NCBI RefSeq assembly: GCF_001186365.1
Contig: NZ_LDTZ01000014.1
Location: 434,001-498,000 of the forward strand
DNA: 64,000 nucleotides
Reading direction: 5' to 3'
Origin: Gordonia jacobaea
GTDB lineage: Bacteria; Actinomycetota; Actinomycetes; Mycobacteriales; Mycobacteriaceae
Part shown: one piece after another, positions 5,063-19,246 of the stretch
How the letters are laid out: each line of letters opens with the position of its first letter
How positions within the stretch are numbered: position 1 is the first letter of the stretch
Made by a program: the position numbers and the translations under genes
Notes under the pieces: generated by a model
Told to the model about the DNA's origin: nothing
Seen by the model: only the letters and a program-made list of their open reading frames with translations
Databases searched by the model: none

Positions 5063-6013
5063 TCAGCCCGACACCAGCGCGCGCAGGAAGAATCCCAGGT
5101 TGGCGGGCTTCTCGGCGAGGCGTCGGACGAAGTAGCCGTACCACTCCTGGCCGTAGGGGATGTACACGCGGACGGCGTGGCCGGCGGTGGCCAGGCGCTG
5201 TTGCTCGTCGGCTCGGATGCCGTAGAGCATCTGGTGTTCCCAGCTGTGTGGCTCCCGGCCGAACTCGATCGCCATCAGCTCGGCCGCCTCGATCATCGTC
5301 GGATCATGGCTGGCGACCATCGGATATCCGGTGCCCTTCATCAGGATTCGTAGACATCTCAGATACGCCTCGTCGATCAGTGAGCGTTCGGGATAGGCGA
5401 CCGACGCGGGCTCGGAGTAGGCGCCCTTGCACAGCCGGATGCGAGCGCCGGATGCCGCGAACTCTTGACAGTCGTCCTCGGTGCGACGCAGGTATGCCTG
5501 CAAAACCGTTCCCAATTCAGGGTATTCGCCGCGCAGAGTCCTGACGATGTCGAGTCGTTCGTCGACGGTGCCGTGGTCCTCGGCGTCGACCGTGACCAAT
5601 ACGCCTGCCGCGGCAGCGGCACCACAGATGGTGTGCGTGTTCTCCTCGGCAATCTTTCGACCATGCCGCGGCAGACACTGGCCCAGCGCAGTGAGCTTCA
5701 ACGACACTTCCAGTGCCCCTGGCGGCGCCTCGAACTGCGACATCCCCTGCAGGAGACTCAGATACGCCGCGACCGTCGCCGACGCCTGAGTTTCGTCGGT
5801 GGTGTCCTCGCCGAGGTGGTCGATGGTCACCGACAGTCCGCTGCCGAGTGCGTCGGCGATTGCCGCGAGTGCGTCGGATTCCGACTCGCCCGCAACAAAG
5901 CGGTCGACGACGCGTTCGGTGACCGGAAGCCGCTGCGATGTCTGCTTGATGCGTTGGCTCCCCGCCGCGCGTGTGATCACCGGGCGCAGAACCGAATCGA
6001 AGAGTGCGCTCAT
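5063..6013 (-). CDS. pruB: proline dehydrogenase
   Basis: Flavoenzyme (PutA/PRODH barrel) that oxidises L-proline to delta-1-pyrroline-5-carboxylate, passing electrons to the quinone pool. The 316 residues match the monofunctional actinobacterial and Thermus type. Recognisable signatures are GTVLQAYLRRT (about 168-178), RLCKGAY (193-199), ASHD (234-237), EHQMLYGIR (259-267) and the closing YFVRRLAEKPAN (294-305) that binds proline and FAD. It lies 11 bp after the P5C dehydrogenase gene and is surely co-transcribed with it. The repeat array lies immediately downstream. Confidence 0.96.
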   Translation of the reverse strand: MSALFDSVLRPVITRAAGSQRIKQTSQRLPVTERVVDRFVAGESESDALAAIADALGSGLSVTIDHLGEDTTDETQASATVAAYLSLLQGMSQFEAPPGALEVSLKLTALGQCLPRHGRKIAEENTHTICGAAAAAGVLVTVDAEDHGTVDERLDIVRTLRGEYPELGTVLQAYLRRTEDDCQEFAASGARIRLCKGAYSEPASVAYPERSLIDEAYLRCLRILMKGTGYPMVASHDPTMIEAAELMAIEFGREPHSWEHQMLYGIRADEQQRLATAGHAVRVYIPYGQEWYGYFVRRLAEKPANLGFFLRALVSG

Positions 6014-6024
6014 GTCATGTCACC

Positions 6025-7674
6025 TCAGTCCTTCTCGGTGGCATCAGTTGCCATGTGCGGGTAGGCCGAATCTTTCGGCGGTACAAAGGTTTCCTTGATG
6101 GTCCGCGTCGACGTCCAGCGCATCAGGTTCGCTTTCGAACCTGCCTTGTCGTTGGTGCCCGATGCGCGCGCCCCACCGAACGGCTGCTGGCCGACGACGG
6201 CGCCGGTCGGTTTGTCGTTGATGTAGAAGTTGCCTGCCGCGTTGCGCAGCAGATTCGACGCCGTCGACACGGCGGCGAGGTCGGTGGCGATGATCGAGCC
6301 GGTCAGCGCGTACCGCGCGGTGGAATCGACCATGCGCAGCGTCGATGCGAAGTCGGCGTCGTCGTAGACGTGGACAGACAAGATGGGTCCGAAGTACTCG
6401 GTGGAGAAGGCTTCGTCGGTCGGGTCGTCGCCGAGCAGCACCGTCGGCCGGACGAAGTAACCCTCGGTGTCGTCGCACTGCCCGCCGACCGCGACGGTCG
6501 TCGAGGCGACGGTCTTCGCACGGTCGATCGCGGCGACCTGCTTGTCGAAGGCGCGTCGGTCGATCACGGCACCGCCGAAGTTGGACAGGTCCCGTACATC
6601 GCCGTAGGTCAATTCGGCTGCCTCGCTGAGGAAGTCGTCGCCCATGCGATCCCACACCGAGCGCGCGACATACGCGCGCGATGCGGCCGAGCACTTCTGC
6701 CCCTGATACTCGAAGGCGCCGCGAATCAGGGCGGTGCGCAACACATCCGGGTCCGCTGACGAATGCGCGACGATGAAGTCCTTGCCGCCCGTCTCGCCGA
6801 CGACGCGCGGGTAGTTGCGATAGTCGTTGATGCGGTTGCCGACTTCGCGCCACAGATGCTGGAAGGTTGCGGTCGAGCCGGTGAAGTGGATGCCCGCGAG
6901 ATTCTCGTCGGCGAGCGCGACGTCGGACATCGCGCGTCCGTCGCCGTTCACCAGATTGATGACGCCGGCCGGGAGTCCGGCCTCTTCGAGGAGCCTCATG
7001 GTGATGTGCGCGGCGTACGCCTGTGTCGGAGAGGGCTTCCACACCACGGTGTTGCCCATCAGCATGGGTGCGGTCGGGAGATTGCCGGCGATGGCGGTGA
7101 AGTTGAATGGTGTGATGGCGTAGACGAATCCGTCGAGCGGACGGTGATCGAGGCGATTCCACACACCCGGCGACGACATCGGCTGCTCGGCGAGGATCTC
7201 CCGCGCGAACTCGACGTTGAACCGCCAGAAATCGACGAGCTCGCACGGCGCGTCGATCTCGGCCTGCTGCACAGTCTTCGACTGCCCGAGCATCGTTGCG
7301 GCAGCTAGCTTTTCACGCCACGGTCCGCTGAGCAGGTCTGCCGCGCGCAGGAGTACGGCCGCTCGATCGTCGAAAGTGGTGTGCGCCCAGGACTCCTGCG
7401 CTGTCATCGCCGCGTCGACGGCGGCGCGGGCATCGTCGTGGGTGGCGTTGGTCATCGTGCCGAGCACCTCGTGATGAGAGTGTGGCTGCACGACGTCGAG
7501 TCGCTCACCGTCTCCGATGTGCGCCGCGCCACCGATGATGTGCGGCAGCTCCGCCGGTTCGGCCGACGACTGTCGCGAGAGTTCCTCGACGATCCGTCGA
7601 CGTTCCGGGGTGCCGAGCGCGTAGGTGTGCACCGGCTCGTTGATTGGGCGTGGGGGAGTGGTGATCGCATCCAT
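6025..7674 (-). CDS. pruA: L-glutamate gamma-semialdehyde (P5C) dehydrogenase
   Basis: NAD-dependent aldehyde dehydrogenase that completes proline breakdown to glutamate. Counting from the chosen ATG (7674), ITPFNFTA lies near 187, the catalytic glutamate in GETGGKD near 294 and the catalytic cysteine in GQKCSAASR near 328. The length of 549 residues is normal. An in-frame TTG at 7716 would add 14 residues that look unlike the family, so the ATG is preferred. The 141-bp gap upstream (7675-7815) should hold the promoter of this two-gene operon. No clear operator was recognised in it. Confidence 0.95.
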   Translation of the reverse strand: MDAITTPPRPINEPVHTYALGTPERRRIVEELSRQSSAEPAELPHIIGGAAHIGDGERLDVVQPHSHHEVLGTMTNATHDDARAAVDAAMTAQESWAHTTFDDRAAVLLRAADLLSGPWREKLAAATMLGQSKTVQQAEIDAPCELVDFWRFNVEFAREILAEQPMSSPGVWNRLDHRPLDGFVYAITPFNFTAIAGNLPTAPMLMGNTVVWKPSPTQAYAAHITMRLLEEAGLPAGVINLVNGDGRAMSDVALADENLAGIHFTGSTATFQHLWREVGNRINDYRNYPRVVGETGGKDFIVAHSSADPDVLRTALIRGAFEYQGQKCSAASRAYVARSVWDRMGDDFLSEAAELTYGDVRDLSNFGGAVIDRRAFDKQVAAIDRAKTVASTTVAVGGQCDDTEGYFVRPTVLLGDDPTDEAFSTEYFGPILSVHVYDDADFASTLRMVDSTARYALTGSIIATDLAAVSTASNLLRNAAGNFYINDKPTGAVVGQQPFGGARASGTNDKAGSKANLMRWTSTRTIKETFVPPKDSAYPHMATDATEKD

Positions 7675-7815
7675 GGTCTCAGTCCATCGAGACGGAGACG
7701 ATTCGGCTATGTCCAATCGGCCAACGTCGATGCAAACAGTTCAGCGGATTGCACAACGGAGATCGCGCAACGGCGCCCGATTGCACGGCAACCGGACGTC
7801 CGTCGTGCCAGCCGC

Positions 7816-8607
7816 CTACGCTGCTCGCGTGCGGATTCTGCCGAGAACAGTGAGCGCGACCAGCGTCGTCGCCAGCAGCACCGTCGTGCAGGCTGCCGCC
7901 GAGAAGACCTGACCGCGATCGGAGAGTCCGAAAATGGTCACCGGCAACGTCTTCCAGGTCGCGGGGTACACCATGACCGTCGCGCCGAGCTCACCCATCG
8001 AGAGTGCCACCGCGAGACCTGCGGCAGCCCCGAGTGCGGGCGTCAACAGAGGTAGCGTGACGCGGGTCAGCACGCGGAACGGGCTGGCGCCCAACGATTC
8101 CGCCGCCTGCTTGTAGGCGGGATCGAGTCGTTCCAACGCAGCGGTGACCGAACTGAACGCGAAGGCCAGGACGAGCACGGTGTGCGCCACGATCACGATC
8201 CAACGGGTGCCGCCCAAGAGCAACGGCTTCGAGTTGAAACTGATCAGCAAACCCAACCCGATGGCGACCGAAGGCACCGCGATCGGCAGGTGGAAGACCG
8301 CGTCGGTGAATCGGCGTATCGGCGCGGGCGCCTCCCTGGACGAGAGCGCGGCCCAGGTGCCGAGAACCAGCGCGATGGCGCCGGCGATGAAGGCCGTCTG
8401 AATGCTGACCGACAGCGATGCCAGGTTCTCGCCCGAGAGCGCATCCCCGAAATGGTTGAGACCCAGGTTCGACGGCAGTGGGCCCGTCCACGAGCCTGCG
8501 AACCCGGCGATGACGACGGTGGCAATCGGTGCGACGAAGACCACGAGTACGACGACCGCGAAGATCGTCCAGGTGATTACCCGGCTGGCGCGAGTCCAGA
8601 GCAACAT
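7816..8607 (-). CDS. phnV: phosphonate-type ABC transporter permease, second subunit (PhnV-like)
   Basis: A 263-residue inner-membrane permease with about six hydrophobic segments. It has the EAA loop of binding-protein-dependent permeases, seen as AAESLGASPFRVLTRVTLP near 168-186. It pairs with the preceding permease gene, sharing one base with it (TGATG). With the ATPase and lipoprotein upstream it makes a complete importer. Closest recognisable type is the 2-aminoethylphosphonate (PhnSTUV) or iron/spermidine-like group. The phosphonate assignment rests mainly on the linked catabolic genes. Last gene of the minus-strand run. Confidence 0.85.
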   Translation of the reverse strand: MLLWTRASRVITWTIFAVVVLVVFVAPIATVVIAGFAGSWTGPLPSNLGLNHFGDALSGENLASLSVSIQTAFIAGAIALVLGTWAALSSREAPAPIRRFTDAVFHLPIAVPSVAIGLGLLISFNSKPLLLGGTRWIVIVAHTVLVLAFAFSSVTAALERLDPAYKQAAESLGASPFRVLTRVTLPLLTPALGAAAGLAVALSMGELGATVMVYPATWKTLPVTIFGLSDRGQVFSAAACTTVLLATTLVALTVLGRIRTRAA

Positions 8608-9488
8608 CAGATCTTCTCCCTGCGAGTCGTGATGCGTGCGAACAACAATCGGTAGGCGCCGTACAGGGCAAGTGACAGTGCGACCTGGACAGTCGCGATC
8701 ACCGCCGCCCCCGGCAGGTCGAACGTGACGATGCCACGGGTGTAGATCAGGACGGGCAGCGTCGTGACGTCTTTGGCGCCCGTGAAGGCGACGATGCCGA
8801 ACTCGTTGAGCGTCAACAGCAGAACCAGGCTTCCGCCCGCTGCCAACGCGGGCCACGCTTCGGGAAGGATCACCGAGCGGAGCACCCGCAACGGCGAAGC
8901 GCCCAGCGATGCAGCCACATTCAGTTGATCCGTCGACATCATCGCGAACGCGGCCAACAGCGGTCGGACGACGAAAGGGGTGAAGAAGGTGATCTCGGCG
9001 AGGATCACGCCCCACGGCGTCGTGAGAAAGTGCAGTGGACGTTCTCCGGTCACCGCGGCGATCGCCGAGTTCACCGCTCCCGCAGAGCCATACAGAAATG
9101 TGAACGCCAGGGTGATGAGAAACGAGGGCAGTGCGAGCACTGTATCGATCATGCGCGCCACCAGGCCCGAACCTGGGAAGGGCACGAACGCCAGGACCAC
9201 GGACAAAAACGTGCCGAGCACAACGCATCCGACCGTCGACGCGATCGCGATCCACGCGGTCGTGGTCAACGCCCGCACGAACGCCTCGCTGCTCAACACT
9301 GCGCCCCAGGTGCTTTGACCTTGACCGTCAGCGGATTCGGCCAGCATCCGGATCAGCGGATACACCGCGATGACGGCGATCACCACGAGAGGCGGCAACG
9401 CCCAGACGAGTGCTCCGAGGCGACGCGGTGCCTGATTCGACGGCGGTGGTGCGGACGTCGCCTGCTCCGCGAGGGTTGCCGACGTCAT
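8607..9488 (-). CDS. phnU: phosphonate-type ABC transporter permease, first subunit (PhnU-like)
   Basis: A 293-residue permease with about six transmembrane segments and an EAA loop (VAASLGASPLRVLRSVILP, near 191-209). The ATG at 9488 overlaps the stop of the ATPase gene in the ATGA arrangement, which fixes the start and implies translational coupling. A longer open frame upstream into the ATPase gene is only a shadow. It should form the membrane channel together with the PhnV-like subunit. Substrate is inferred from the neighbouring phosphonate catabolic genes, because permeases of the putrescine, iron and aminoethylphosphonate groups look alike. Confidence 0.87.
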   Translation of the reverse strand: MTSATLAEQATSAPPPSNQAPRRLGALVWALPPLVVIAVIAVYPLIRMLAESADGQGQSTWGAVLSSEAFVRALTTTAWIAIASTVGCVVLGTFLSVVLAFVPFPGSGLVARMIDTVLALPSFLITLAFTFLYGSAGAVNSAIAAVTGERPLHFLTTPWGVILAEITFFTPFVVRPLLAAFAMMSTDQLNVAASLGASPLRVLRSVILPEAWPALAAGGSLVLLLTLNEFGIVAFTGAKDVTTLPVLIYTRGIVTFDLPGAAVIATVQVALSLALYGAYRLLFARITTRREKI

Positions 9489-10663
9489 CGCGGACCTCCG
9501 GCTGTGTCGACCAATGTGCCTGCCGGGTCGGGCAACCGCACGCCGACGACCTCGTCGACCGGGTGGTCGGCGCGGCCCGCGACGTCGGCGTCGATCAGTT
9601 GATCGGGCAGACCGTCGACGGCGAGCGTCAAGCGTGTCGACGCCCCGCGCCAGACCGACGTCGTCACGCGGGCACGCAGTGATCGCTGTGCACCGACTGC
9701 GGTCACTTCGATTTCGTGTGGGCGGATGCACAGGTGCGCAGGCAATCCCGGCGTCCACCTCGACATCGGTTCCGGGGCGGTCGCCGACAGCATCTTCTCA
9801 CCGACCTCGACCAAAGCCGTTGCGCCGGACACGCGTCCGACCTTGCAGGGGAGAAGATTGGCGCCACCGAGGAACGACGCCGTGAAGCCCGACGGTGGTC
9901 GAGACCACAGTTCATCGGTTGTGCCGATGTCGACGAGGCGAGCATCGCGCATGACGCCGATCCGATCTGCCAGCGCGAGGGCCTCGGTCTGATCGTGCGT
10001 CACATACAGCATGGTGGTGTCGGGCAATGCATCTCGCAGTCGTTGGAGCTCCCCGACCATGGTCTGGCGTAGGGCGGCGTCGAGCGCAGCGAGTGGTTCG
10101 TCGAGCAGTAGGACGTCGGGCTTGATGGCCAGTGCCCGGGCAATGGCCACGCGCTGCTGCTGTCCGCCGGAGAGTTCGCGGGGCAGGCGTGAACCGTACT
10201 CGGACATGCTGACCATGCCGAGTGCTTCCTCGACCCGCTCGCCGACCTCGCGCTTGGAGAGTTTGCGTGCTCGCAACCCGAAGGCGACGTTGTCACGCAC
10301 CCGCATGTGTGGGAAGAGTGCGTACGACTGCACGACGACGCCGATCCCGCGACGTGCGGGCGGAAGGTCGGTGATGTCGTTGCCGGACAGTCGAACCCGA
10401 CCGGCTGTCGGGCGCACGAACCCTGCGAGCGACTTGAGTGCCGTCGACTTTCCGGAACCACTCGGACCAAGCAGCGCGACGGTCTCACCACGGCTGACGC
10501 GCAACGTGAAGTCGCGCAACGCATCTGTGGAGTTCTTACCGCGTCCATAGGAGACGGTCACGCGATCGAAGGCGATCGCCGGTTGCTGTGGGGAGGCCCC
10601 CGAGGGGGTCGACGCCGAGAGCTCGGCGTCGACCTTCCTGCGAGTCAACGGATTCTGTGCCAT
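9485..10663 (-). CDS. phnT: phosphonate-type ABC transporter ATPase (PhnT-like)
   Basis: Cytosolic ATPase of the importer, 392 residues. Walker A is GPSGSGKST at 66-74, the signature LSGGQ at 164-168, Walker B VLLLDEP at 184-190, and the H-loop falls in THDQTEA. The last 100 residues form a TOBE-like regulatory domain (CIRPHEIEV), as in the PotA/FbpC/PhnT group. There is a roughly 28-residue N-terminal extension before the ABC core. The gene starts one base after the stop of the binding-protein gene and overlaps the PhnU-like permease gene by 4 bp. Confidence 0.93.
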   Translation of the reverse strand: MAQNPLTRRKVDAELSASTPSGASPQQPAIAFDRVTVSYGRGKNSTDALRDFTLRVSRGETVALLGPSGSGKSTALKSLAGFVRPTAGRVRLSGNDITDLPPARRGIGVVVQSYALFPHMRVRDNVAFGLRARKLSKREVGERVEEALGMVSMSEYGSRLPRELSGGQQQRVAIARALAIKPDVLLLDEPLAALDAALRQTMVGELQRLRDALPDTTMLYVTHDQTEALALADRIGVMRDARLVDIGTTDELWSRPPSGFTASFLGGANLLPCKVGRVSGATALVEVGEKMLSATAPEPMSRWTPGLPAHLCIRPHEIEVTAVGAQRSLRARVTTSVWRGASTRLTLAVDGLPDQLIDADVAGRADHPVDEVVGVRLPDPAGTLVDTAGGPR

Positions 10664-10664
10664 G

Positions 10665-11714
10665 TCAGTTACCGGTTGCCTTCTGATATGCGGCGACGTC
10701 GGCGTCGAGCGTGGAGAGCACCGACTTCCAGTCCGGATGCCAGATCGTCACGCCTTGGATTGTCTGTGCGGGGCTCGGCGACGTGGTGGGCGCGGCGACG
10801 TCGGTGCGAACGGAGACGCCGAGAGCGTCGGTGCCGACCGTGTTCTGTACGTCCTTCGAGAGCAGGAACGTGAGCAGCTTCTTGGCGTCGTCGGCGTGCG
10901 GTGCTCCCTTGGTGATTCCCGCGAAGTACGGCAGCGACACCGTGGTTCGCGACCCGTCAGGCATCGCGGGGAAGAACAGGTCGAACTTCGAGCCGTCGTC
11001 GCGGATCGATGCGAGGTTCATCTGTACGTCACCGTTGGCGACGAGGAGTTCGCCGTTGCTCACCTTCGGCTGCAGCTTTCCGGTCGAGCTCGACGGCCCG
11101 ACGTTGTTGGCCTGCAACTTGCCGAGGTAGTCGAGCGCACCCTGCTTGCCCATCAGATGTTGCAGGAGCAGGAGTACCGCGGTGCCGTCGCCTGCCTGGC
11201 CCGGCGTCGAATACTGGATCTTGCCCTTGAAACGAGAGTCGAGAAGGTCATTCCACGACGCGGGCGCAGGCTGTGCGGACGGGTTGCGGATGAATGACAG
11301 ATAGTTGTCGACGATGCCGACGTAGTTGCCGCCGACGGCAGACGGATCGACGCCGGTGGTGTCGACGCCCGGTGCCGTGAGAAGTCCGTCGGCGTCGGCC
11401 TTCTGGATGAACGGGGGCAGCGTGACGAGCAGGTCGGCCTGCGGGTTGGACTGCTCTTTCTGCACGCGCGAGACGACCTCGCCCGAGCCTGCCTCGACGA
11501 TATTGACCGAAATACCGGTCTGGTCTTTGAATTTGGCGAACTCGCTCTTGTACCAGGTACCGAGTCCGTCTGCGGTGTAGACGGTCAGTGTCTTGCCGCC
11601 GCCGGAATCGGACGATCCCGTACCGCCGCAGGCCGCAGTCAGTGTGACCGCTGCGACCGTCGCAGCAAGAGCGACGGCTCGCATCGAGGTGCGAGTGAGA
11701 CGTGAAATGCGCAT
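10665..11714 (-). CDS. phnS: extracellular solute-binding lipoprotein of the phosphonate-type importer (PhnS-like)
   Basis: A 349-residue substrate-binding protein. It starts with a lipoprotein signal (MRISRLTRTSMRAVALAATV, then lipobox LTAAC), so it should be anchored to the outer face of the membrane. The mature part resembles family-1 extracellular binding proteins of the iron/2-aminoethylphosphonate type, with TLTVYTADGLGTWYKSEF at its beginning. The ATG at 11714 has a GGGGG purine run 6-10 bases upstream. A further 22 in-frame codons upstream are not signal-like. It opens the phnSTUV set, and the upstream gap contains a hairpin. Confidence 0.9.
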   Translation of the reverse strand: MRISRLTRTSMRAVALAATVAAVTLTAACGGTGSSDSGGGKTLTVYTADGLGTWYKSEFAKFKDQTGISVNIVEAGSGEVVSRVQKEQSNPQADLLVTLPPFIQKADADGLLTAPGVDTTGVDPSAVGGNYVGIVDNYLSFIRNPSAQPAPASWNDLLDSRFKGKIQYSTPGQAGDGTAVLLLLQHLMGKQGALDYLGKLQANNVGPSSSTGKLQPKVSNGELLVANGDVQMNLASIRDDGSKFDLFFPAMPDGSRTTVSLPYFAGITKGAPHADDAKKLLTFLLSKDVQNTVGTDALGVSVRTDVAAPTTSPSPAQTIQGVTIWHPDWKSVLSTLDADVAAYQKATGN

Positions 11715-11759
11715 GAGAGAACCCCCTGTGGGTGATGAAGTGGGCGTGGCGGATGGCGC

Positions 11760-11781
11760 TGTGCTGCGCCGATGCAGCACA
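11760..11781 (-). other. small hairpin between the HAD hydrolase gene and phnS
   Basis: A perfect 8-bp inverted repeat (TGTGCTGC / GCAGCACA) with a 6-base loop lies in the 114-bp gap between the HAD hydrolase stop and the phnS start. It could be a partial terminator or an mRNA stabiliser that sets the amount of binding protein relative to the catabolic genes upstream. Confidence 0.45.
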
Positions 11782-11828
11782 ACGGATGTGGATGGATGGT
11801 GAAATTCTGGGTGGTGTCGACCGGGTGA

Positions 11829-12512
11829 TCAGTTGCCGAACAATGCTGCGGCGGCACCGATGTCGGCGACGACATCGGTTGCGCCTGCCGCGCGAAGGGT
11901 GTCTTCGTCATGTGCGCCGGTCAGTACGCCCGCGACGATGCCCGCGCCGGCGCGCACGCCGCTGGTGATGTCATTGGCGGTGTCACCGACGACCGCAACC
12001 TGACGCACATCGTCGATGCGCAGCGTGATGAGGGCCGAGAGGATCATGTCGGGAAAGGGCCTGCCGCGCAGAGTGTCCGACGGCGCGATGACGAGGTCGG
12101 CGAGATCGTGCCAGCCGAGGGAGTCGATGAGTAGTTTCTGAGTGTTCGCGCTGAAGCCAGTGGTCAGCGCGACCTTGATTCCTGAGTCACGCAGCTGTGA
12201 AATGGACTGTGCCGCACCGTCGATAGGGGTGGCACCGCCGTCGGCGATCTGCGCGTCGTACGCCTTCTCGAAGGCCGCATTGGCCGCCTGGGCGCGTGCT
12301 TCGTCGCCATCGACGAGGTGCCGGAAGACGGTGATCTTGGATTGCCCCATCGTGTCGACGACGTATTGCCTCACCTCGTCGTGGCTGGGGCCGTCGGTGG
12401 GTAGGCCTGCGGCTGCTGCCGCGGCGTCGAACGCGGCGAGGACCGAGCCGCCGTCGGCGACCGTCGTGCCTGCCATGTCGAGGACTGCGAGTGTGATCGG
12501 GTTGTCGGACAA
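11829..12512 (-). CDS. phosphonatase-like HAD hydrolase (TIGR03351 type)
   Basis: A 227-residue HAD-superfamily C-P hydrolase relative. The nucleophile motif is LDMAGTT (D12), the DxAGT form peculiar to phosphonatases. The usual motif-III lysine is an arginine (LRGRPFPD, near 149-151), and motif IV is VGDTANDI (D177, D181). The cap contains MGQSKITVFRHL with K59 where PhnX carries its Schiff-base lysine. Family knowledge says this clade keeps PhnX chemistry but is linked to FAD oxidoreductases instead of the transaminase PhnW, exactly the arrangement here. Expected substrate is phosphonoacetaldehyde or a close 2-oxoethylphosphonate, yielding phosphate. Confidence 0.9.
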   Translation of the reverse strand: MSDNPITLAVLDMAGTTVADGGSVLAAFDAAAAAAGLPTDGPSHDEVRQYVVDTMGQSKITVFRHLVDGDEARAQAANAAFEKAYDAQIADGGATPIDGAAQSISQLRDSGIKVALTTGFSANTQKLLIDSLGWHDLADLVIAPSDTLRGRPFPDMILSALITLRIDDVRQVAVVGDTANDITSGVRAGAGIVAGVLTGAHDEDTLRAAGATDVVADIGAAAALFGN

Positions 12513-12540
12513 GGTATTTCCCTTCAGGTGTGGCGTGTGG

Positions 12541-13695
12541 TCAGAGGTTCATGAGGTCTGCGGTGTCTTCACCGATCGCGGGGCCGAGCGTCATTCCACG
12601 CCCACCCGGGCCGGTGACGACCCAGACGCCTGGCGAGACCTCGCTGCGGTAGACGAGTTCTGAGGAGTCGAGGCACTGCGAGTAGACACCTGCCCAGCGT
12701 CGTGCGATGGGCGGAAGGCGTCGCCCGAGCAGGTTCTCGACGACCGAAACCAGATGTTGGTAGGGGTCTTCGGTGACGTCGAAGCCGAAGATGTCGGCGT
12801 CGTCGCCGTCCGCGGTGCGGTCATAGGCGTGTGTGTCGCCGATCGTCAGGCCGCCGTCGAGGCGTTGCACGCACAGCAGTTGCATGTGGTGTTCGGCAGC
12901 GACCGGTGACTGCGACTGCACGCGGCCGAGGTGGTCGAGGGCCTCGCCTGCGAATGCGGGGTAGTAGCGGAAGCTGTCGCCGTCGGCGATCGCGGTGGTG
13001 AGCTTCTCATCGAACGGCGCGGTCTGCATCATCTGCAGCCTGACCCGGCGGACCGGTGGTTGCTCGCCGACCAGTTCGCGTAGCAGACCCGAGTGCGCGG
13101 CGCCGGTGCACACGACGACGGCGTCGCCGCGATGGGTGGCACCGGTGTCGTCGGTGACCTCGACCGTCCCCGACGTCGACGTCACCGACCGCACCTCACG
13201 CCCGCCGAGATACTCGAAACGCCCGGTGGTGGAGAGGAACCCACGCAATGCGGGGAGTGCGACACGAGATTCGACGGCTCCGTCGCGTGCGCAGTGCAGA
13301 CCCGCGACATAGGTGCCCTGCAGTGCGGGATTGATCGCGCGCACGTCGGAGGGATCGAGGAGTGTGAACTCGCGTTGGGCGGAATCACTCTGTGCGAGAG
13401 TCTCTTCCGCGACGGCCAGCTCAGCAGCGGTGCGGACGAGTGTGATCGAGCCGCACGGCCGGAAGCCGATACCGGGAACGTCGGCTCCGATCTTCTCCCA
13501 GAGGTCACGTGAGCGCTGCACCGCGGGGAGTTCGTCCGCCGAACGTCCGGACACCCAGACGAGTCCGAAGTTTCGGACTGTAGCGCCGCGCGCCTCACGC
13601 TCTCGTTCGAGCAACAGCACCTCGTGTCCGCGCTCGATGGCGGCACGCGCATGCGACGTACCGAGGATTCCGCCTCCGATGATGATCACCTTCAT
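12541..13695 (-). CDS. FAD-dependent amine oxidase linked to phosphonate use (TIGR03364 type)
   Basis: A 384-residue DAO-family flavoprotein. The dinucleotide-binding start is MKVIIIGGGILGTSHARAA, followed by GATVRNFGLVWVSGR, characteristic of the phosphonate-associated clade. The C-terminal WVVTGPGGRGMTLGPAIGE segment completes the FAD site. Such enzymes are thought to deaminate aminoethylphosphonate, its N-methyl form or 1-hydroxy-2-aminoethylphosphonate, releasing an aldehyde for the HAD hydrolase next door. It is the first gene of the minus-strand run, 28 bp before the HAD gene. Twin GntR-type palindromes lie 19-79 bp upstream of its start. Confidence 0.9.
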   Translation of the reverse strand: MKVIIIGGGILGTSHARAAIERGHEVLLLEREREARGATVRNFGLVWVSGRSADELPAVQRSRDLWEKIGADVPGIGFRPCGSITLVRTAAELAVAEETLAQSDSAQREFTLLDPSDVRAINPALQGTYVAGLHCARDGAVESRVALPALRGFLSTTGRFEYLGGREVRSVTSTSGTVEVTDDTGATHRGDAVVVCTGAAHSGLLRELVGEQPPVRRVRLQMMQTAPFDEKLTTAIADGDSFRYYPAFAGEALDHLGRVQSQSPVAAEHHMQLLCVQRLDGGLTIGDTHAYDRTADGDDADIFGFDVTEDPYQHLVSVVENLLGRRLPPIARRWAGVYSQCLDSSELVYRSEVSPGVWVVTGPGGRGMTLGPAIGEDTADLMNL

Positions 13696-13713
13696 GCGAA
13701 CTAGTCTGCTGGT

Positions 13714-13727
13714 TTGGTCTAGACCAA
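13714..13727. promoter_or_regulatory. GntR/HutC-type operator 1
   Basis: The 14-bp perfect palindrome TTGGTCTAGACCAA is centred between 13720 and 13721, 25 bp upstream of the FAD oxidoreductase start. TGGTCTAGACCA is the classical half-site arrangement of HutC-subfamily regulators (NagR, DasR and PhnF type). The regulator gene of that type is the second gene of the divergent operon. Confidence 0.8.
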
Positions 13728-13760
13728 TAAAGGTCCTTTCGGAGAACTCTGGGTTAACTC

Positions 13761-13774
13761 TTGGTCTAGACCAG
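13761..13774. promoter_or_regulatory. GntR/HutC-type operator 2
   Basis: A second copy of the TGGTCTAGACCA palindrome (13762-13773) lies 47 bp centre to centre from the first and 21 bp before the start of the HD-domain gene. One copy near each divergent gene suggests coordinated repression of both directions by the local GntR protein, and feedback control of the regulator itself. Confidence 0.8.
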
Positions 13775-13793
13775 ATTGGGTACAGTGAATCTC

Positions 13794-14327
13794 ATGTGTG
13801 CGGATGTGGTTGCAGAGGTCGAGGACGTGCTGCGCTCGCTGCGCGGAGTCTGGGACGAAGAGGCCGTCGACGAGCTCGATCACGCGCTGCAGGCGGGCCG
13901 CAATGCCGTGGTGGCAGGCGCGGATGACGAACTGGTGCTCGCCGCTGTGCTCCACGACGTCGGGCACAGTCGCCTCGTCGAGTCCACTGCTCGCCACGAC
14001 GACGATGCGCGGGCCTGGCTGACTCCTCGATTCGGCGAACGTGTCGGATGGCTTGCGGGTTCGCATGTCGCGGCGAAGAAGTGGCTGGCGGCTCACGATC
14101 CGGCCTACACGGATGGGCTGACCGCGACATCGGTCGCCTCGCTCGCGGAGCAGGGAGGCGCAGGCGATCTCGGTGCGGAGTGGACACGGCACCCGTGGTG
14201 GCCAGATGCCCTCGCATTGCGCCGATTCGACGACGCCGCGAAGATTCCCGGGGCTTCGGCACTCTCGATCGACGAGGTCGTGGTGGTGGCCCGGCGTGTG
14301 CTCGACGTCGAGCGGGGTGGCCACTGA
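13794..14327 (+). CDS. PhnZ/TmpB-like HD-domain mixed-valence diiron oxygenase
   Basis: A 177-residue HD-fold protein. The metal ligands expected for PhnZ are all in place: H30 (ELDHALQAG), H54 and D55 (LHDVGH), H68, H91 (GSHVAAKKWL) and D146 (RRFDDAAKIPG). Characterised relatives oxidatively split 1-hydroxy-aminoalkylphosphonates to phosphate and an amino acid. The residue aligning with the iron-capping Tyr of PhnZ appears to be W20, while a glutamate (E23) fits the amine-sensing Glu. No 2-oxoglutarate hydroxylase partner (PhnY/TmpA) is encoded nearby. The ATG at 13794 is chosen over an upstream TTG (13776). The gene ends in a TGATG overlap with the regulator gene. Confidence 0.85.
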   Translation: MCADVVAEVEDVLRSLRGVWDEEAVDELDHALQAGRNAVVAGADDELVLAAVLHDVGHSRLVESTARHDDDARAWLTPRFGERVGWLAGSHVAAKKWLAAHDPAYTDGLTATSVASLAEQGGAGDLGAEWTRHPWWPDALALRRFDDAAKIPGASALSIDEVVVVARRVLDVERGGH

Positions 14328-15031
14328 TGGCGCCCGAAACTCAGCCGAAGTACGTGCGGGTGCGGACTGAACTCGAGCACGTCCTCGCCGATCTCGAAGA
14401 GGGCGACTCGGTGCCATCCGAACGCGTGCTGTCCGAACGTTTTTCGGTTGCGCGCGAGACGGTGCGGCAGGCGTTGCAGGAACTACTCGTCGAGGGCCGG
14501 ATCGAACGGCGCGGGCGCGGAACGGTCGTGTCGGCGCCAAAGATGGTGCAGCCGTTGTCGTTGAAGTCCTACACCGAGGGAGCGCGCCAGTTCGGCCGGG
14601 TACCCAGCCGTATCATGGTGACATTCGCCGACGCCGTACCCGAAGAATCCGTCTGCGCAGGTTTGGGTTTGGCGCCTGGTTCGACCGTGATGCACCTTGA
14701 ACGCGTGCTGCTCGCCGACGGCCAGAAGCTCGGGCTGGAGAGTACGTTTCTCCCGAAAGAGCGATTCGGGCACTTCTACGAGACCTTCGATCCGGAGACC
14801 TCGTTGTACACCGCGATCCGTGCCGAGGGCGTCACGTTCGCCAGCGCCGAGGAGCGGATCGAGACGGCGCTGCCGAGCCCGCGGCAGGCCCAGCTACTCG
14901 AAACGTCGACCGCCATGCCGATGCTGTTGCTGCGCAGGCGATCTTTCGACGCCGCCGGCCTGCCCGTCGAGGTGGTGTGGTCGCTCTTCCGCGGCGACCG
15001 CATCGCCTTCGAGGCCACGCTGCGGGAGTGA
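14327..15031 (+). CDS. GntR/HutC-family transcriptional regulator with UTRA domain
   Basis: A 234-residue regulator. An N-terminal winged helix (VPSERVLSERFSVARETVRQ at about 29-48) is followed by a UTRA ligand-binding domain from about residue 75 to the end. The start ATG overlaps the stop of the oxygenase gene by one base, which fixes it. It most probably binds the two TGGTCTAGACCA palindromes at 13714 and 13761 and responds to a phosphonate or a pathway intermediate. The pairing with the oxygenase gene is like TmpR/PhnF-type local regulators. Ligand unknown. Confidence 0.92.
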   Translation: MAPETQPKYVRVRTELEHVLADLEEGDSVPSERVLSERFSVARETVRQALQELLVEGRIERRGRGTVVSAPKMVQPLSLKSYTEGARQFGRVPSRIMVTFADAVPEESVCAGLGLAPGSTVMHLERVLLADGQKLGLESTFLPKERFGHFYETFDPETSLYTAIRAEGVTFASAEERIETALPSPRQAQLLETSTAMPMLLLRRRSFDAAGLPVEVVWSLFRGDRIAFEATLRE

Positions 15032-15207: not shown

Positions 15208-16833
15208 TCAGCCGGCGGGCCGCGGGACCCGGAGCGTCAGCGCGACGACCAGGCGGGTGGTCGGGTCGTCGAGGTCAATGCCCGTCAGCTCCTGCACGCG
15301 ACGAATGCGGTAGCGCAACGTGTTCGGATGGATGTGAAGCGCGGCGGAGGCCGCGCGGACGTCGCCGAAATGGTCGAGGTAGGCGCGCAGCGACGGTGTG
15401 AGTTCACTTCCCGACGTTTCGTCGCGCGCCGCGAGGTCGAGGACGCGCGCGTCGATCAGCTCCGGGTTTTCTTCGATCAGCGCGACGATCTCGCCGAGCA
15501 GCACTCCCGTCGTCGACGCCGCGACCGTCGTGACGGGCTCGATCAGATCCGATTCACGTTGTGCCGCATCGAGAACGCGATCAGTCTGAGTCCGCAATGT
15601 CGGTGCAGACCCGAGTCCCGCGGCGGGCCCAGCGACCACGGCCCGTGCGTCGACACCGAACTGTCGACGCGCCGCCGCAACCGCCGAGCGGGCCCACGCG
15701 ACCGTTGTCGCCTGATTGGCAGCGGGAAGTACGACGTAGGCGCGTGGTCCGAGCGTCGACGTCACCGACAACGGGCTGAATGCGCTGGCGTGCAACGTCA
15801 ATGCGGAGATCATCGCGGGTGTTGGCGCGGCCACCGATGCTCTCGACGGGTCGGTGAGCAGGCCGCCGAAAGCAACCACCATAAGGTCCGCGTCGGACGA
15901 TATGCCCAGTTGGTTACCAAGGAACTCCGAGTCGATCGTCTCGCCGCGCGCTCCGAGAAGTCTGCGTACCAGTTCGTCGTGCCCGCTGCCCGCGCTGCGT
16001 CGTCGAGAAATGATGCGCGCTGCGACAGCGGCGGCGCCCGCGAGAATGTCGGAGGTGTTGTCGGCGAACCGATCTCGCCCTTCCTGCAACCAGATCGCGC
16101 CGAGGTAGTCGCCGACTCCCTGCTCGTGCGGAGAGCGGATCGAGATCGCCAGCCGCGGGCGCAACCCGAGTTCGCTGCGTTCCTCGACGGACACCAGTGT
16201 CTCGGTGGTGCGCAGCGCATCCAGCACGCCCCACTGGCGCAACCAGGCGAGCATCTCCGGTGGTCCCTCGCGCCCGAGGATCGACAATCGTCGAAGCTCG
16301 TCGGCTTCGTCGCCGGCGCTGCTGTAGGCGAGTACATGGGAACGCGCGTCCTCGATGCTGACGAGCCCACCGGTGCGGCGCGCGACCTCTGCGGCGAGTT
16401 CGAAGAGGTCGCCGATGCTGCCCGCCTGCATGGATTCGGCCCCGGGCGGTGCCGACGACGCATCCAGCACCCGCAGCACGAGTCGGTAGATGCGTTCCCA
16501 CCGAGCATGCGGATCGACGTCGATGACCGCGACGGAATGCTCGGCGATGCGGGAGATGGCTTCGGCAGACGGCGATTTGAGCATGACGGCGACGGGCATC
16601 TGCGCTCCGAACCCGTCGAGCCAACCGACAACGTCGTCGGCGTCGACCCCGACCATCAGGAACAGGTCCGCGTCGCGCGCCGACGTGTGTAGCGGCAGGC
16701 GCAGGTCGTCGGGGTCGATGAGCGCGACCGAGTCGATCACGACGTCGAGGCCCCGCGGTGCGGCAGCCAGTGACGCCAGCGTCGCGTCGAGCGCGAGCAA
16801 CAGCCGCCCCACACCGACACCGGATTCATCCAT
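15208..16833 (-). CDS. PucR-family transcriptional regulator
   Basis: About 541 residues. The C-terminus has the PucR-type helix-turn-helix (LRAYLDHFGDVRAASAALHI, then HPNTLRYRIRRVQELTGIDL). The middle resembles a GGDEF-like CdaR/PucR sensor domain, and the N-terminus is a PucR leader domain. The ATG at 16833 is chosen. A TTG at 16872 would add 13 residues but has no ribosome site. Mycobacterial PruC, which activates proline genes, has a similar size and family, so it might control pruBA 7.5 kb away. Its position beside a glutamine synthetase also suggests nitrogen control. Both are guesses. Confidence 0.85.
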   Translation of the reverse strand: MDESGVGVGRLLLALDATLASLAAAPRGLDVVIDSVALIDPDDLRLPLHTSARDADLFLMVGVDADDVVGWLDGFGAQMPVAVMLKSPSAEAISRIAEHSVAVIDVDPHARWERIYRLVLRVLDASSAPPGAESMQAGSIGDLFELAAEVARRTGGLVSIEDARSHVLAYSSAGDEADELRRLSILGREGPPEMLAWLRQWGVLDALRTTETLVSVEERSELGLRPRLAISIRSPHEQGVGDYLGAIWLQEGRDRFADNTSDILAGAAAVAARIISRRRSAGSGHDELVRRLLGARGETIDSEFLGNQLGISSDADLMVVAFGGLLTDPSRASVAAPTPAMISALTLHASAFSPLSVTSTLGPRAYVVLPAANQATTVAWARSAVAAARRQFGVDARAVVAGPAAGLGSAPTLRTQTDRVLDAAQRESDLIEPVTTVAASTTGVLLGEIVALIEENPELIDARVLDLAARDETSGSELTPSLRAYLDHFGDVRAASAALHIHPNTLRYRIRRVQELTGIDLDDPTTRLVVALTLRVPRPAG

Positions 16834-16891
16834 ATCGACAAAGATACCGACCAGACCTGGCTGATCGTCCAAGAAAGTTCGTGAAATGCGA

Positions 16892-16923
16892 CGTGCCCGC
16901 CGGGAGATATCCCGGCGGGCACG
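16892..16923 (-). terminator. hairpin terminator of the glutamine synthetase gene
   Basis: A perfect 14-bp inverted repeat (CGTGCCCGCCGGGA / TCCCGGCGGGCACG) with a GATA loop begins 16 bp past the stop of the glutamine synthetase gene on the minus strand. It lies upstream of the PucR start, so it should stop glutamine synthetase transcripts from entering the regulator gene. It has no T run. Confidence 0.8.
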
Positions 16924-16939
16924 CTGCGTGGTGTTCGCG

Positions 16940-19111
16940 TCAGAGAATGGTCAGCATCTCGTTGTACGTCGGAAGCGGCCACAGATCGTCGGCGACGACT
17001 CCCTCGAGTGCGTCGGAGACGTCGCGCACGCCGTTCATCGCGGGGATCAGCGACTTCAGTGCGTACTCCGACTCCTCCTCGACGGTCTCTCCGTGGAAGC
17101 CCTCGATAGCGGACTCGAGCGTATCCATGGCGGCGTTGAGCTCGCTGACCTTGCCGGTCATGGTGCCCAGCGCCGGGGTCTCCATCTCGATGCCCGCAGC
17201 CTTGAGGCTGGCCGCGGTGCTCGCGAGTTCGCCCATGTAACGCGTTGCCGCGGGCAGGATCATCGTCTTGGCGATCTCGAGTGTCTCCTTGGCCTCAACC
17301 AGCAGGGCCAACGAATACTGTTCGAGCACAACGTCTTTACGCGCCTCGAGCTCGCGCTCGGACAGGATGCCGTACTTGCTGAACACCTCCTTGATCTCCG
17401 GGAGGTCGTACTGCTCCATCGCGTCGACGGTGGTGCGGAGGTTCAGCAGACCGCGCGACGCGGCCTCCTCCTGCCACTCGTCGGAGTAGCCGTTGCCGTT
17501 GAAGACCACCTTGCCGTGCTCGGTGATGATGCCCTCGAGCAGTTTCTGCACTGCGGCGTGGAACTCGGTTCCCGCAGCGATCTCCTTGTCGAGGAAGTCG
17601 GCGACGTACTCGAGCGAATCGGCGAGCATCGCGTTGATCGCGATCATCGGGTCGGCGATCGACTGGTTGGAGCCGGGCGCGCGGAACTCGAAACGGTTGC
17701 CGGTGAAGGCGAACGGGCTGGTGCGGTTGCGATCGCCGGCGTCGGCCTTGAACGGCGGCAGCGTGTCGACGCCGAGTTCGATGACGCCCGACGTCTTGCT
17801 CTCCTTGGCACCACCCTTCGCGATCTGGTCGAAGATGTCGGAGAGCTGCTCGCCGAGGAAGATCGAGATGATCGCGGGCGGCGCCTCGTTGGCGCCCAAG
17901 CGGTGATCGTTCGACGCCGAGGCGATCGAGGCACGCAGGAGGCCGCCGTACTTGTGCACGCCGCGGATGATCGCCGCGCAGAAGACGAGGAACTGCTCGT
18001 TCTCGTGCGGGGTGTCGCCGGGGTTGAGCAGGTTGCCCTGGTTGGAGTTGCCCATCGAGAAGTTGACGTGCTTGCCCGAGCCGTTGACTCCGGCGAACGG
18101 CTTCTCATGCAGCAACGCGATCATGCCGTAGCGCTCTGCGACCTTCTTGATGGTGGTCATCATGAGCTGCTGGTGATCGTGGGCGATGTTCGAGCGCTCG
18201 AAGACCGGGGCGATCTCGAACTGTCCCGGTGCGACCTCGTTGTGGCGGGTCTTGGCCGGGATGGCCTGCTTGAACAGTTCGCGGTCGAGCTCGATCATGA
18301 ACGCGAGCACACGGTCGGGGATCGCCCCGAAGTAGTGGTCGTCGAACTCCTGACCCTTCGACGGCTTGGCGCCGAACAGCGTGCGGTTCGTCGTCATCAG
18401 GTCGGGGCGGGCGAAGTAGAAGTGGCGGTCGATCAGGAAGTACTCCTGCTCCGGGCCCGCGTACGAGACGACGGTGTCGACGTCCTCGTGGCCGAACAGT
18501 CGCAGCACGCGCATCGCCTGCTTGCTCATGGCCTGCTGGCTGCGCAGCAGCGGCACCTTCTTGTCGAGGGCCTCGCCGGTCCACGAGATGAAGATCGTGG
18601 GGATGCACAGCGTGTTGCCGTTGGGGTTCTCCAGGATGTACGCCGGGCTGGTGACGTCCCATCCGGTGTAACCGCGGGCCTCGAAGGTGCCGCGCAGGCC
18701 GCCGTTGGGGAAGCTCGACGCGTCGGGCTCGCCCTGCAGCAGCGTCTTACCTGCGAATTCGGCGAGCGAACCGTCGGCGCCGTCGGGTTCGAGGAAGGAG
18801 TCGTGCTTCTCGGCGGTGAATCCGGTCAGCGGGTAGAAGACGTGCGCGTAATGCGACGCACCCTTCTCGATGGCCCAGTCCTTCATCGCGGAAGCTACGT
18901 AGTCGGCGAGGGTCGGGTCGAGTGGAACGCCCTTGTCGATGGTTGCCGCGACAGCCTTGAAGACGTGCTTGGGCAGGCGGGTCTTCATCGCCGAGAGGGT
19001 GAAGACGTTGCGGCCGAAGGTGTCTGCCAGGGGCTCGGGGAAGCCGTCGCATTCCATCTCATACGTGGTCACGGCCTCGATGGCCTGACGGCGGGACATG
19101 CTGCCACTCAT
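16940..19111 (-). CDS. glnN: type III glutamine synthetase
   Basis: Cytosolic ATP-dependent glutamate-ammonia ligase of the large GSIII class, 723 residues from the ATG at 19111. AGGAG sits 7 bases upstream of that ATG. Class features seen are [12 protein letters not shown] near the N-terminus, [54 protein letters not shown] and [16 protein letters not shown], covering the glutamate, ammonium and ATP sites. Upstream in-frame codons to 19246 lack family similarity. A candidate GlnR-like box lies 136 bp upstream. This is an additional synthetase beside the usual type I glnA, likely used under nitrogen limitation. Confidence 0.95.
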
Positions 19112-19246
19112 ACATAAACTCCTGGGTCGGCTCTCCGGTTGCGACGCGTGTGCGCCTGTCGTGGCCGGGTGGCCCCGAAGAGTGAGTGTCGTTGGTTCAA
19201 GCAAAACGACGCTATGAGGACCAGGTACCCAGGTCATTGCCTCCAT

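Follow-up and report, generated by a model that had tools for sequence, protein, structure and literature searches.

A Gordonia jacobaea gene cluster with two candidate arms for aminophosphonate C–P bond cleavage behind a single importer

Why would one bacterial locus encode both a hydrolytic and an oxidative type of C–P bond enzyme, and do the two act in separate routes or in a single chain? This question is raised by a locus from Gordonia jacobaea that lies within a window of 64,000 nucleotides (the whole stretch of DNA that was analysed; assembly GCF_001186365.1, NZ_LDTZ01000014.1, positions 434,001–498,000 of the forward strand). Positions 7816..15031 of the window contain eight genes, which encode four importer components, a HAD hydrolase, an FAD oxidoreductase, an HD-domain protein and a GntR regulator. 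The importer, HAD and FAD genes are on the minus strand and diverge, around two identical palindromes, from the HD and GntR genes on the plus strand. A sequence-only reading had placed all eight genes where we find them, and few boundaries needed correction.

That reading assigned the importer to the aminoethylphosphonate type. In agreement with this, the PhnS-like substrate-binding protein (10665..11714, minus strand; NF011620, 459.8 bits against a cut-off of 310) and the first permease, PhnU (8607..9485, minus strand; NF011624, 394.6 against 247; TIGR03226, 284.5 against 283.45), exceed curated cut-offs for 2-aminoethylphosphonate (AEP) transport. The binding protein also matches PDB entry 4r6y, annotated as a putative 2-aminoethylphosphonate-binding protein, at an E-value of 1.7e-85. 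Three other curated cut-offs are missed, by the binding protein (TIGR03227, 338.5 against 395.3), the PhnT-like ATPase (9485..10663, minus strand; TIGR03258, 350.5 against 499.15) and the PhnV-like second permease (7816..8607, minus strand; TIGR03255, 226.4 against 358.7), and we therefore refer to the importer as PhnSTUV-like rather than as a member of PhnSTUV. The start of this distal permease was revised to the ATG at 8607, which overlaps the stop of the first permease. Judging from its family, the importer probably brings in AEP and related compounds.

The HAD hydrolase (11829..12512, minus strand) is phosphonatase-like, as proposed earlier: it scores above the TIGR03351 cut-off (228.5 against 218.9) and below that of the PhnX model TIGR01422 (84.6 against 220). 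HAD residues D12, T118, R151, D177 and D181 pair with PhnX D12, T126, R160, D186 and D190 in all three MAFFT modes; we take these PhnX residues to be the catalytic Asp, Thr and Arg and the two Mg aspartates. The nucleophile has the same Asp-x-Ala context as in PhnX, and the MGQSKI motif that bears K59 is unchanged in all 10 relatives that were aligned. K59 pairs with the PhnX Schiff-base K53 in two of four alignments (hhalign and one of the three MAFFT modes), K53 being unpaired in the other two. Top Foldseek matches of the HAD model mix phosphatases with phosphonatases, so the fold of the model cannot separate these functions.

The adjoining FAD enzyme (12541..13695, minus strand) belongs, as anticipated, to the phosphonate-linked amine oxidoreductase clade, with a score above the TIGR03364 cut-off (335.5 against 285.1). 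PbfD1 carries the same annotation, and PbfD oxidases convert N-methyl-AEP, and in the case of PbfD2 also AEP, to phosphonoacetaldehyde without PhnW (PMC10590968). The G. jacobaea enzyme shares 24–32% identity, where aligned, with those TIGR03364 proteins of its order that score higher, and a long branch separates it from them in our tree. This distance makes AEP or N-methyl-AEP uncertain as its substrate.

Across the palindromes, the HD-domain protein (13794..14327, plus strand) is a probable diiron oxygenase of the PhnZ/TmpB fold, an identification that PDB matches, fold and metal ligands all uphold. PhnZ (1.7e-13) and TmpB (1e-10) are its significant PDB sequence matches, two nitrile hydratase entries following at E about 0.5. 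The predicted structure superposes on PhnZ (4n71) with a Foldseek TM of 0.86, and all 10 of its Foldseek matches with E <= 0.001 are PhnZ or TmpB. The protein falls under each of the three NCBIfam cut-offs that it matches (TIGR03276, 117.6 against 214.6; NF052439, 72.5 against 300; NF049941, 67.5 against 300). Six metal-ligand positions (H...HD...H...H...D), K95 and Q120 are invariant across the 84 rows of our alignment. The YxxE gating loop of PhnZ and TmpB reads WDEE in this protein, with the Tyr replaced by Trp20 and the Glu kept. Trp occupies the position of the iron-capping Tyr in 74 rows, Phe in 6 and Tyr in 4; the Glu position, said to meet the substrate amine, holds Glu in 55 rows, Asp in 17 and other residues in 12. 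Because the gate Tyr is absent and the Glu is not universal, 1-hydroxy-AEP may not be the substrate of the HD protein.

With revised boundaries, the HD gene is joined by an ATGA overlap to the single GntR/UTRA regulator gene that had been noted (14327..15031, plus strand), which is confirmed by PF07702 and PF00392; its closest NCBIfam model is PhnF (100.5 against a cut-off of 156.8). The palindrome TGGTCTAGACCA forms two putative operators, one adjoining the FAD start (13715..13726) and one the HD start (13762..13773). No further exact copy exists in the genome (4.92 Mb). The element is kept in relatives, where 88 of 91 regulator-bearing loci have it in the position expected, and among the fetched loci we counted 121 matches in 26.6 kb there compared with 10 in 2.23 Mb elsewhere. 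A search for consensus sigma-70 promoters found none.

Of the customary partners whose absence was remarked on before, PhnW is missing from the eight genes, and queries confirmed by Pfam found no relative of the C–P lyase proteins PhnI or PhnJ within the 64 kb. Genome-wide, we found no TmpA-like gene that could represent the 2-oxoglutarate hydroxylase PhnY/TmpA: a TIGR02409 profile search gave no match at E <= 1e-5 (a TmpA from locus L088 scores 340 bits on that profile), and the sole PhyH gene at E <= 0.001 looks EctD-like by eye.

The gene-neighbourhood search suggested by the sequence-only reading was carried out on 80 loci collected through the HD protein, which is thus present in all by construction. 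FAD and HAD genes adjoin it in 64 of these, and we reject the idea that the arrangement is an isolated oddity. In a survey of 199 genomes of the order (HD match, at least 140 bits; FAD and HAD, over cut-off), each of the 25 TIGR03364 matches has a TIGR03351 match within about 3 kb, and an HD protein of the window's type lies beside 6 of these 25 pairs. FAD plus HAD is thus the base unit and HD an add-on. Chance neighbourhood was likewise rejected: the FAD gene is present in 6 of the 7 genomes with an HD match and in 18 of the 192 without one (Fisher p 1.1e-5, kinship ignored), and the seventh HD-bearing genome (G144) has a partial match. Plasmid records hold 2 FAD, 13 HD and 2 HAD matches, all below 60% identity, and so give no sign that plasmids spread the cluster.

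Natural variants bear on how the enzymes relate to one another. Three loci (L089, L099, L101) have FAD and HAD without HD, and four (L058, L063, L081, L116) have HD without FAD or HAD, and importer and regulator are of one type throughout. An obligatory FAD–HAD–HD chain is rejected by these variants, which favour parallel routes, one of two alternatives raised at the outset. HD lacks a local FAD gene in 10 of the 80 loci, two of them at contig edges. Genomes in which HD lacks local FAD and HAD genes have another TIGR03364 gene elsewhere, so HD is not their sole candidate route. FAD and HD occur without an adjoining HAD in six of the 80 loci (L018, L025, L037, L072, L074 and, at a contig edge, L040). 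Four of these six genomes have TIGR03351 elsewhere; the L037 genome (M. tusciae) has no match over cut-off, a case that a scheme of parallel arms leaves unexplained. Phosphate/phosphite/phosphonate-type binding proteins adjoin the core or HAD in L043, L104 and L095, and FAD and HAD adjoin PhnI and PhnJ in L100.

With moderate confidence, we read the G. jacobaea cluster as an inducible aminophosphonate scavenging locus in which two parallel C–P cleaving arms share one importer. In the first arm, the FAD enzyme would replace PhnW, oxidatively deaminating AEP or N-methyl-AEP to phosphonoacetaldehyde; the HAD enzyme would then form a Schiff base with this aldehyde through its lysine and split it into acetaldehyde and phosphate. 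In the second, the HD protein would cleave an aminophosphonate with an alpha-hydroxyl group, for which 1-hydroxy-2-aminoethylphosphonate is the likeliest candidate, and so yield phosphate and an amino acid. This substrate may enter from the environment already hydroxylated, in which case no PhnY/TmpA would be needed. The GntR regulator is predicted to bind both palindromes at the divergent starts and to release both transcripts on a phosphonate signal. According to the passages of PMC8154272 used here, PhnW–PhnX fails to process R-HAEP (1-hydroxy-AEP) properly, and such clusters hold PhnZ homologues.

A rather unlikely alternative has the FAD enzyme feed both cutters: it would oxidise an imported hydroxylated aminophosphonate to 1-hydroxy-phosphonoacetaldehyde, which the Trp-gated HD protein, not HAD, would cut to glyoxylate and phosphate, while HAD would take the non-hydroxylated aldehyde. 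The six loci with FAD and HD but no local HAD, including the genome without TIGR03351 over cut-off, fit this sequence of steps, as does the tentative inference in PMC8154272 that 1-hydroxy-phosphonoacetaldehyde is not a PhnX substrate. So does the gate residue: within the clade of the window's HD protein, all tree rows with an FAD neighbour have Trp (69) or Phe (6), whereas Tyr occurs in all four rows that keep the importer without local FAD or HAD, and in this clade is confined to the two separate lineages that these rows represent. The correlation amounts to two events, however (sign test p 0.5), and two events prove nothing. Outgroup rows (L088, L118, L119) carry Tyr and, with the deep branching order of the tree left open, Tyr in the two lineages may be either regained or ancestral. 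Its presence is not explained by the absence of FAD alone, given Phe in an R. qingshengii plasmid locus with HD but neither FAD nor HAD (L138) and Trp both in four loci with neither FAD nor a window-type importer (L033, L045, L061, L051) and in one that has HAD and importer yet lacks FAD (L075). Further against a shared FAD step are a Tyr-gated HD protein of another clade (37% identity) beside FAD and HAD in L092, the retention of the amine-contacting Glu in 55 of 84 rows, the loci in which HD lacks local FAD, and the completeness of FAD plus HAD without HD in most FAD+HAD loci. We consider it quite improbable that Trp-gated HD proteins form a distinct functional class of diiron oxygenases acting on the phosphono-aldehyde product of a neighbouring FAD enzyme, with the Tyr-gated oxygenases of the two lineages using imported hydroxy-aminophosphonate like PhnZ.

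It is also unlikely that the HD protein serves mainly to clear a toxic hydroxy analogue that AEP importers may admit, leaving FAD and HAD as the nutritional arm. Racemic HAEP, once taken up, inhibits E. coli growth, and AEP-importing cells may find HAEP hard to exclude (PMC8154272); the add-on status of HD is consistent with such a role. The four loci in which HD is the sole enzyme kept with importer and regulator nevertheless fit feeding better. That HAD is an ordinary phosphatase in a locus for a non-phosphonate amine is very improbable: the mixed Foldseek matches and inconstant K59 pairing would allow it, but the PhnX-like Asp-x-Ala nucleophile, the invariant MGQSK, the PhnS-like and PhnZ-type proteins of the locus, and the binding proteins and PhnI/PhnJ adjoining relatives' genes all argue against it.

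The parallel-arm reading extends combined hydrolytic and oxidative phosphonate use to Mycobacteriales. The palindrome-defined regulon offers a place to seek further phosphonate genes, and the natural variants, among them the Tyr enzymes of Rhodococcus jostii and Gordonia polyisoprenivorans, together with a single gate position (Trp, Phe or Tyr), offer a direct test of the role of the iron-capping Tyr in HD oxygenases.

The claim that this combination had not been described holds for the exact gene set in the literature searched (supplements and most subscription papers apart): in this mainly open-access body we found no description of FAD, TIGR03351 and PhnZ-type genes in one cluster, nor of a Trp gate in PhnZ-type enzymes. 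It does not hold for hydrolytic/oxidative pairing as an idea, of which the locus is a new version, since PhnZ homologues are published in phnWX (15 of 1,186) and phnWAY (24 of 75) clusters (PMC8154272) and an FAD-plus-hydrolase route without PhnW is published as well (PMC10590968). The former clusters likewise unite a hydrolytic AEP route with a PhnZ-type oxygenase; the Gordonia locus differs in having a TIGR03364 FAD enzyme for PhnW and TIGR03351 for PhnX, and perhaps also in the Trp gate of its oxygenase. With PhnY–PhnZ and TmpA–TmpB, the Gordonia HD protein has the fold and all metal-ligand positions in common, but no hydroxylase partner was found in its genome and WDEE stands in place of YxxE. 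PbfD with PhnX, as presented in PMC10590968, similarly sets a TIGR03364-type FAD enzyme beside a phosphonatase-type HAD without PhnW, whereas the Gordonia HAD is TIGR03351 rather than PhnX, an HD oxygenase is added, and the FAD enzyme, when compared with the TIGR03364 proteins of its own order, proves distant from them. NCBI also annotates a TIGR03364/TIGR03351 pair, and the description of TIGR03364, quoted in PMC10590968, makes the two neighbours and proposes a function without test. The Gordonia proteins pass both cut-offs and adjoin as described, and the locus adds an HD oxygenase and palindromes, neither of which figures in the quoted part of that description.

The window carries the phosphonate locus that the sequence-only reading had described as pairing a hydrolytic with an oxidative C-P bond enzyme, and its genes, divergent layout and families were confirmed. 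On the minus strand, from 13695 down to 7816, lie in this order a TIGR03364-type oxidoreductase (FAD), a TIGR03351 phosphonatase-like hydrolase (HAD), a binding protein, an ATPase and two permeases. The plus strand (13794-15031) carries a probable diiron oxygenase of the PhnZ/TmpB fold (HD) followed by a GntR/UTRA regulator, the two genes sharing an ATGA overlap. The source genome is a Gordonia near G. sputi, whose HD protein shares 90% identity with the one here. Proline dehydrogenase-like, P5C dehydrogenase, PucR-like and glutamine-synthetase-like genes lie on both sides (5063-7716 and 15208-19246); among the flanks of the compared loci, the complete set occurs only in Gordonia, and these genes are likely unrelated neighbours.

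HAD scores over the TIGR03351 cut-off and under that of PhnX. Aligned to PhnX, its Asp12, Ala14, Thr118, Arg151, Asp177 and Asp181 occupy PhnX positions, whereas Phe120 stands where PhnX has Tyr128. Lys59, within an MGQSK motif invariant among aligned relatives, was placed opposite Lys53, the Schiff-base lysine of PhnX, by hhalign and in one of the three MAFFT modes. The importer is PhnSTUV-like: its binding protein and one permease exceed some curated cut-offs, the remaining subunits fall under theirs, and the binding protein's top PDB sequence match is annotated as a putative 2-aminoethylphosphonate (AEP)-binding protein. FAD exceeds the cut-off of TIGR03364, to which PbfD1, a characterised N-methyl-AEP oxidase, is assigned (PMC10590968). 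A long branch splits FAD and its tree neighbours from those TIGR03364 proteins of the order that score higher, with 3.1 and 4.1 changes per column to the two sides of a midpoint root. A second type of TIGR03364/TIGR03351 pair was seen in Rhodococcus, Mycolicibacterium and Antrihabitans genomes (fetched loci L125, L127, L131, L132, L136 and L137); in L137 it adjoins an MFS carrier related to GlpT/PgtP, under those cut-offs, and L131, L132 and L136 look alike by eye.

Between the divergent starts lie two identical palindromes, TGGTCTAGACCA, 47 bp apart; no further exact copy occurs in the 4.92 Mb genome. In 88 of 91 loci with a regulator at least 44% identical to that of the window, GGT(A/C/T)TAGACC or its complement sits where expected, with 121 matches in 26.6 kb vs 10 in 2.23 Mb of the rest of the fetched loci. 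It is present in 56/56 loci with FAD, HAD, HD and importer, 11/12 with FAD, HAD and HD, 4/4 with HD and importer, 2/4 with FAD, HAD and importer, 7/7 with HAD only, 4/4 with FAD and HD, and 4/4 of other types. The variants therefore look like parts of one regulon that would answer to one class of inducer.

Gene content was counted in 80 loci from named genomes, the loci having been found through the HD protein. FAD, HAD, importer and regulator all accompany HD in 53; FAD, HAD and regulator do so in seven without a PhnSTUV-like importer and in four with a partial one (three at contig edges). HD stands with FAD and regulator in four (one at a contig edge), with FAD alone in two, with HAD, importer and regulator in one, with importer and regulator in three, with regulator alone in three (two at contig edges), and without any of these partners in three. 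In L043 and L104, the core adjoins a binding protein of the phosphate/phosphite/phosphonate (PhnD-like) type; such a protein adjoins HAD and regulator alone in L095, which the HAD-regulator loci L120, L122, L123 and L133 resemble by eye. Regulator, FAD, HAD and importer occur without HD in L089 and L099, and in L100 PhnI and a PhnJ-PhnK fusion precede FAD and HAD. Across the regulator from the FAD/HAD/importer locus of L092 lies a different PhnZ-type HD gene (9370-10008; 37% identity), probably a second, independent pairing. Among 199 genomes of the order, TIGR03364 gave 25 matches over cut-off in 24 genomes, every one within about 3 kb of a TIGR03351 match over cut-off; the window-type HD adjoins six of these pairs and the L092 HD a seventh. 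Nine of 59 Gordonia genomes carry the HD gene, with FAD and HAD adjacent in seven and absent there in two (G273 being treated as the G. sputi record of L007).

Several further loci were observed. In L118 (8232-9707) and L119 (9210-10589), a PhnZ-type HD domain is encoded in the same open frame as an inositol-monophosphatase-family domain (PF00459) upstream of it; in L118, PhnI and a PhnJ-PhnK-like fusion precede the gene, which therefore belongs to a C-P lyase operon. The actinomycete locus L088 (4136-10529) encodes TmpA (over the NF049936 cut-off) and a TmpB-like HD, accompanied by ABC importer genes and a GntR regulator of their own. On an R. qingshengii plasmid (L138, 3589-10513), an HD oxygenase lies close to ABC importer genes and a gene annotated as arylsulfatase, without FAD or HAD, and might represent another phosphonate route. 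A contig titled Kitasatospora arboriphila (L056) carries a locus nearly identical to that of Williamsia muralis (L052); the assembly is probably mislabelled or contaminated.

The HD protein folds like PhnZ/TmpB and keeps all metal-ligand positions, and scores under the cut-offs of all three curated models matched. According to a review (PMC8177086), PhnZ and TmpB carry a YxxE loop whose Tyr ligates Fe2 before substrate comes and whose Glu contacts the substrate amine once it is present. This loop is instead WDEE in the window, with Trp20 at the position of the iron-capping Tyr (the gate). Across 84 rows (the window, the 80 loci, L094, L104 and L105), the gate is W in 74, F in six and Y in four, and the Glu position is E in 55, D in 17 and other in 12. 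A tree computed without the loop columns places the Tyr gate in two lineages of the window-type clade, Rhodococcus opacus/jostii/wratislaviensis and Gordonia polyisoprenivorans with genome G253, each surrounded by Trp or Phe rows, and Tyr may have been regained or retained there. Among 84 rows whose context is known, the only four Tyr rows are exactly the four with importer and regulator but without local FAD/HAD, a match that rests on two events. HD genes lacking both FAD and a PhnSTUV-like importer keep Trp or Phe, and L092, whose HD is of another clade, has a Tyr gate with FAD and HAD adjacent. The Trp gate, its role putative, is a structural feature worth an experiment.

The sequence-only reading had left open two parallel routes or one shared substrate. 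FAD and HAD form the basic unit to which HD is added, because they often occur without HD, and HD is at times found without them under the same importer type; two parallel arms would yield such separable variants. This scheme agrees with published reasoning by which hydroxy-AEP is unable to go properly through PhnW-PhnX and PhnZ homologues sometimes occur in such clusters (PMC8154272). The same paper reports hydroxy-AEP from Acanthamoeba castellanii, a soil amoeba that could plausibly supply it to soil actinomycetes. Against parallel arms stand six loci in which FAD and HD lack a nearby HAD; the genome of one has no TIGR03351 match over cut-off. Also against them, another TIGR03364 gene lies elsewhere in each of the five genomes whose HD is of the Tyr type (G205-G208, G253), and TIGR03351 is present in all four searched for it, so that HD is not their only candidate route. 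The interpretation given in the sequence-only reading is thus supported in part. Pairing a hydrolytic with an oxidative C-P enzyme is already known as such, and the locus is a new variation on that kind.
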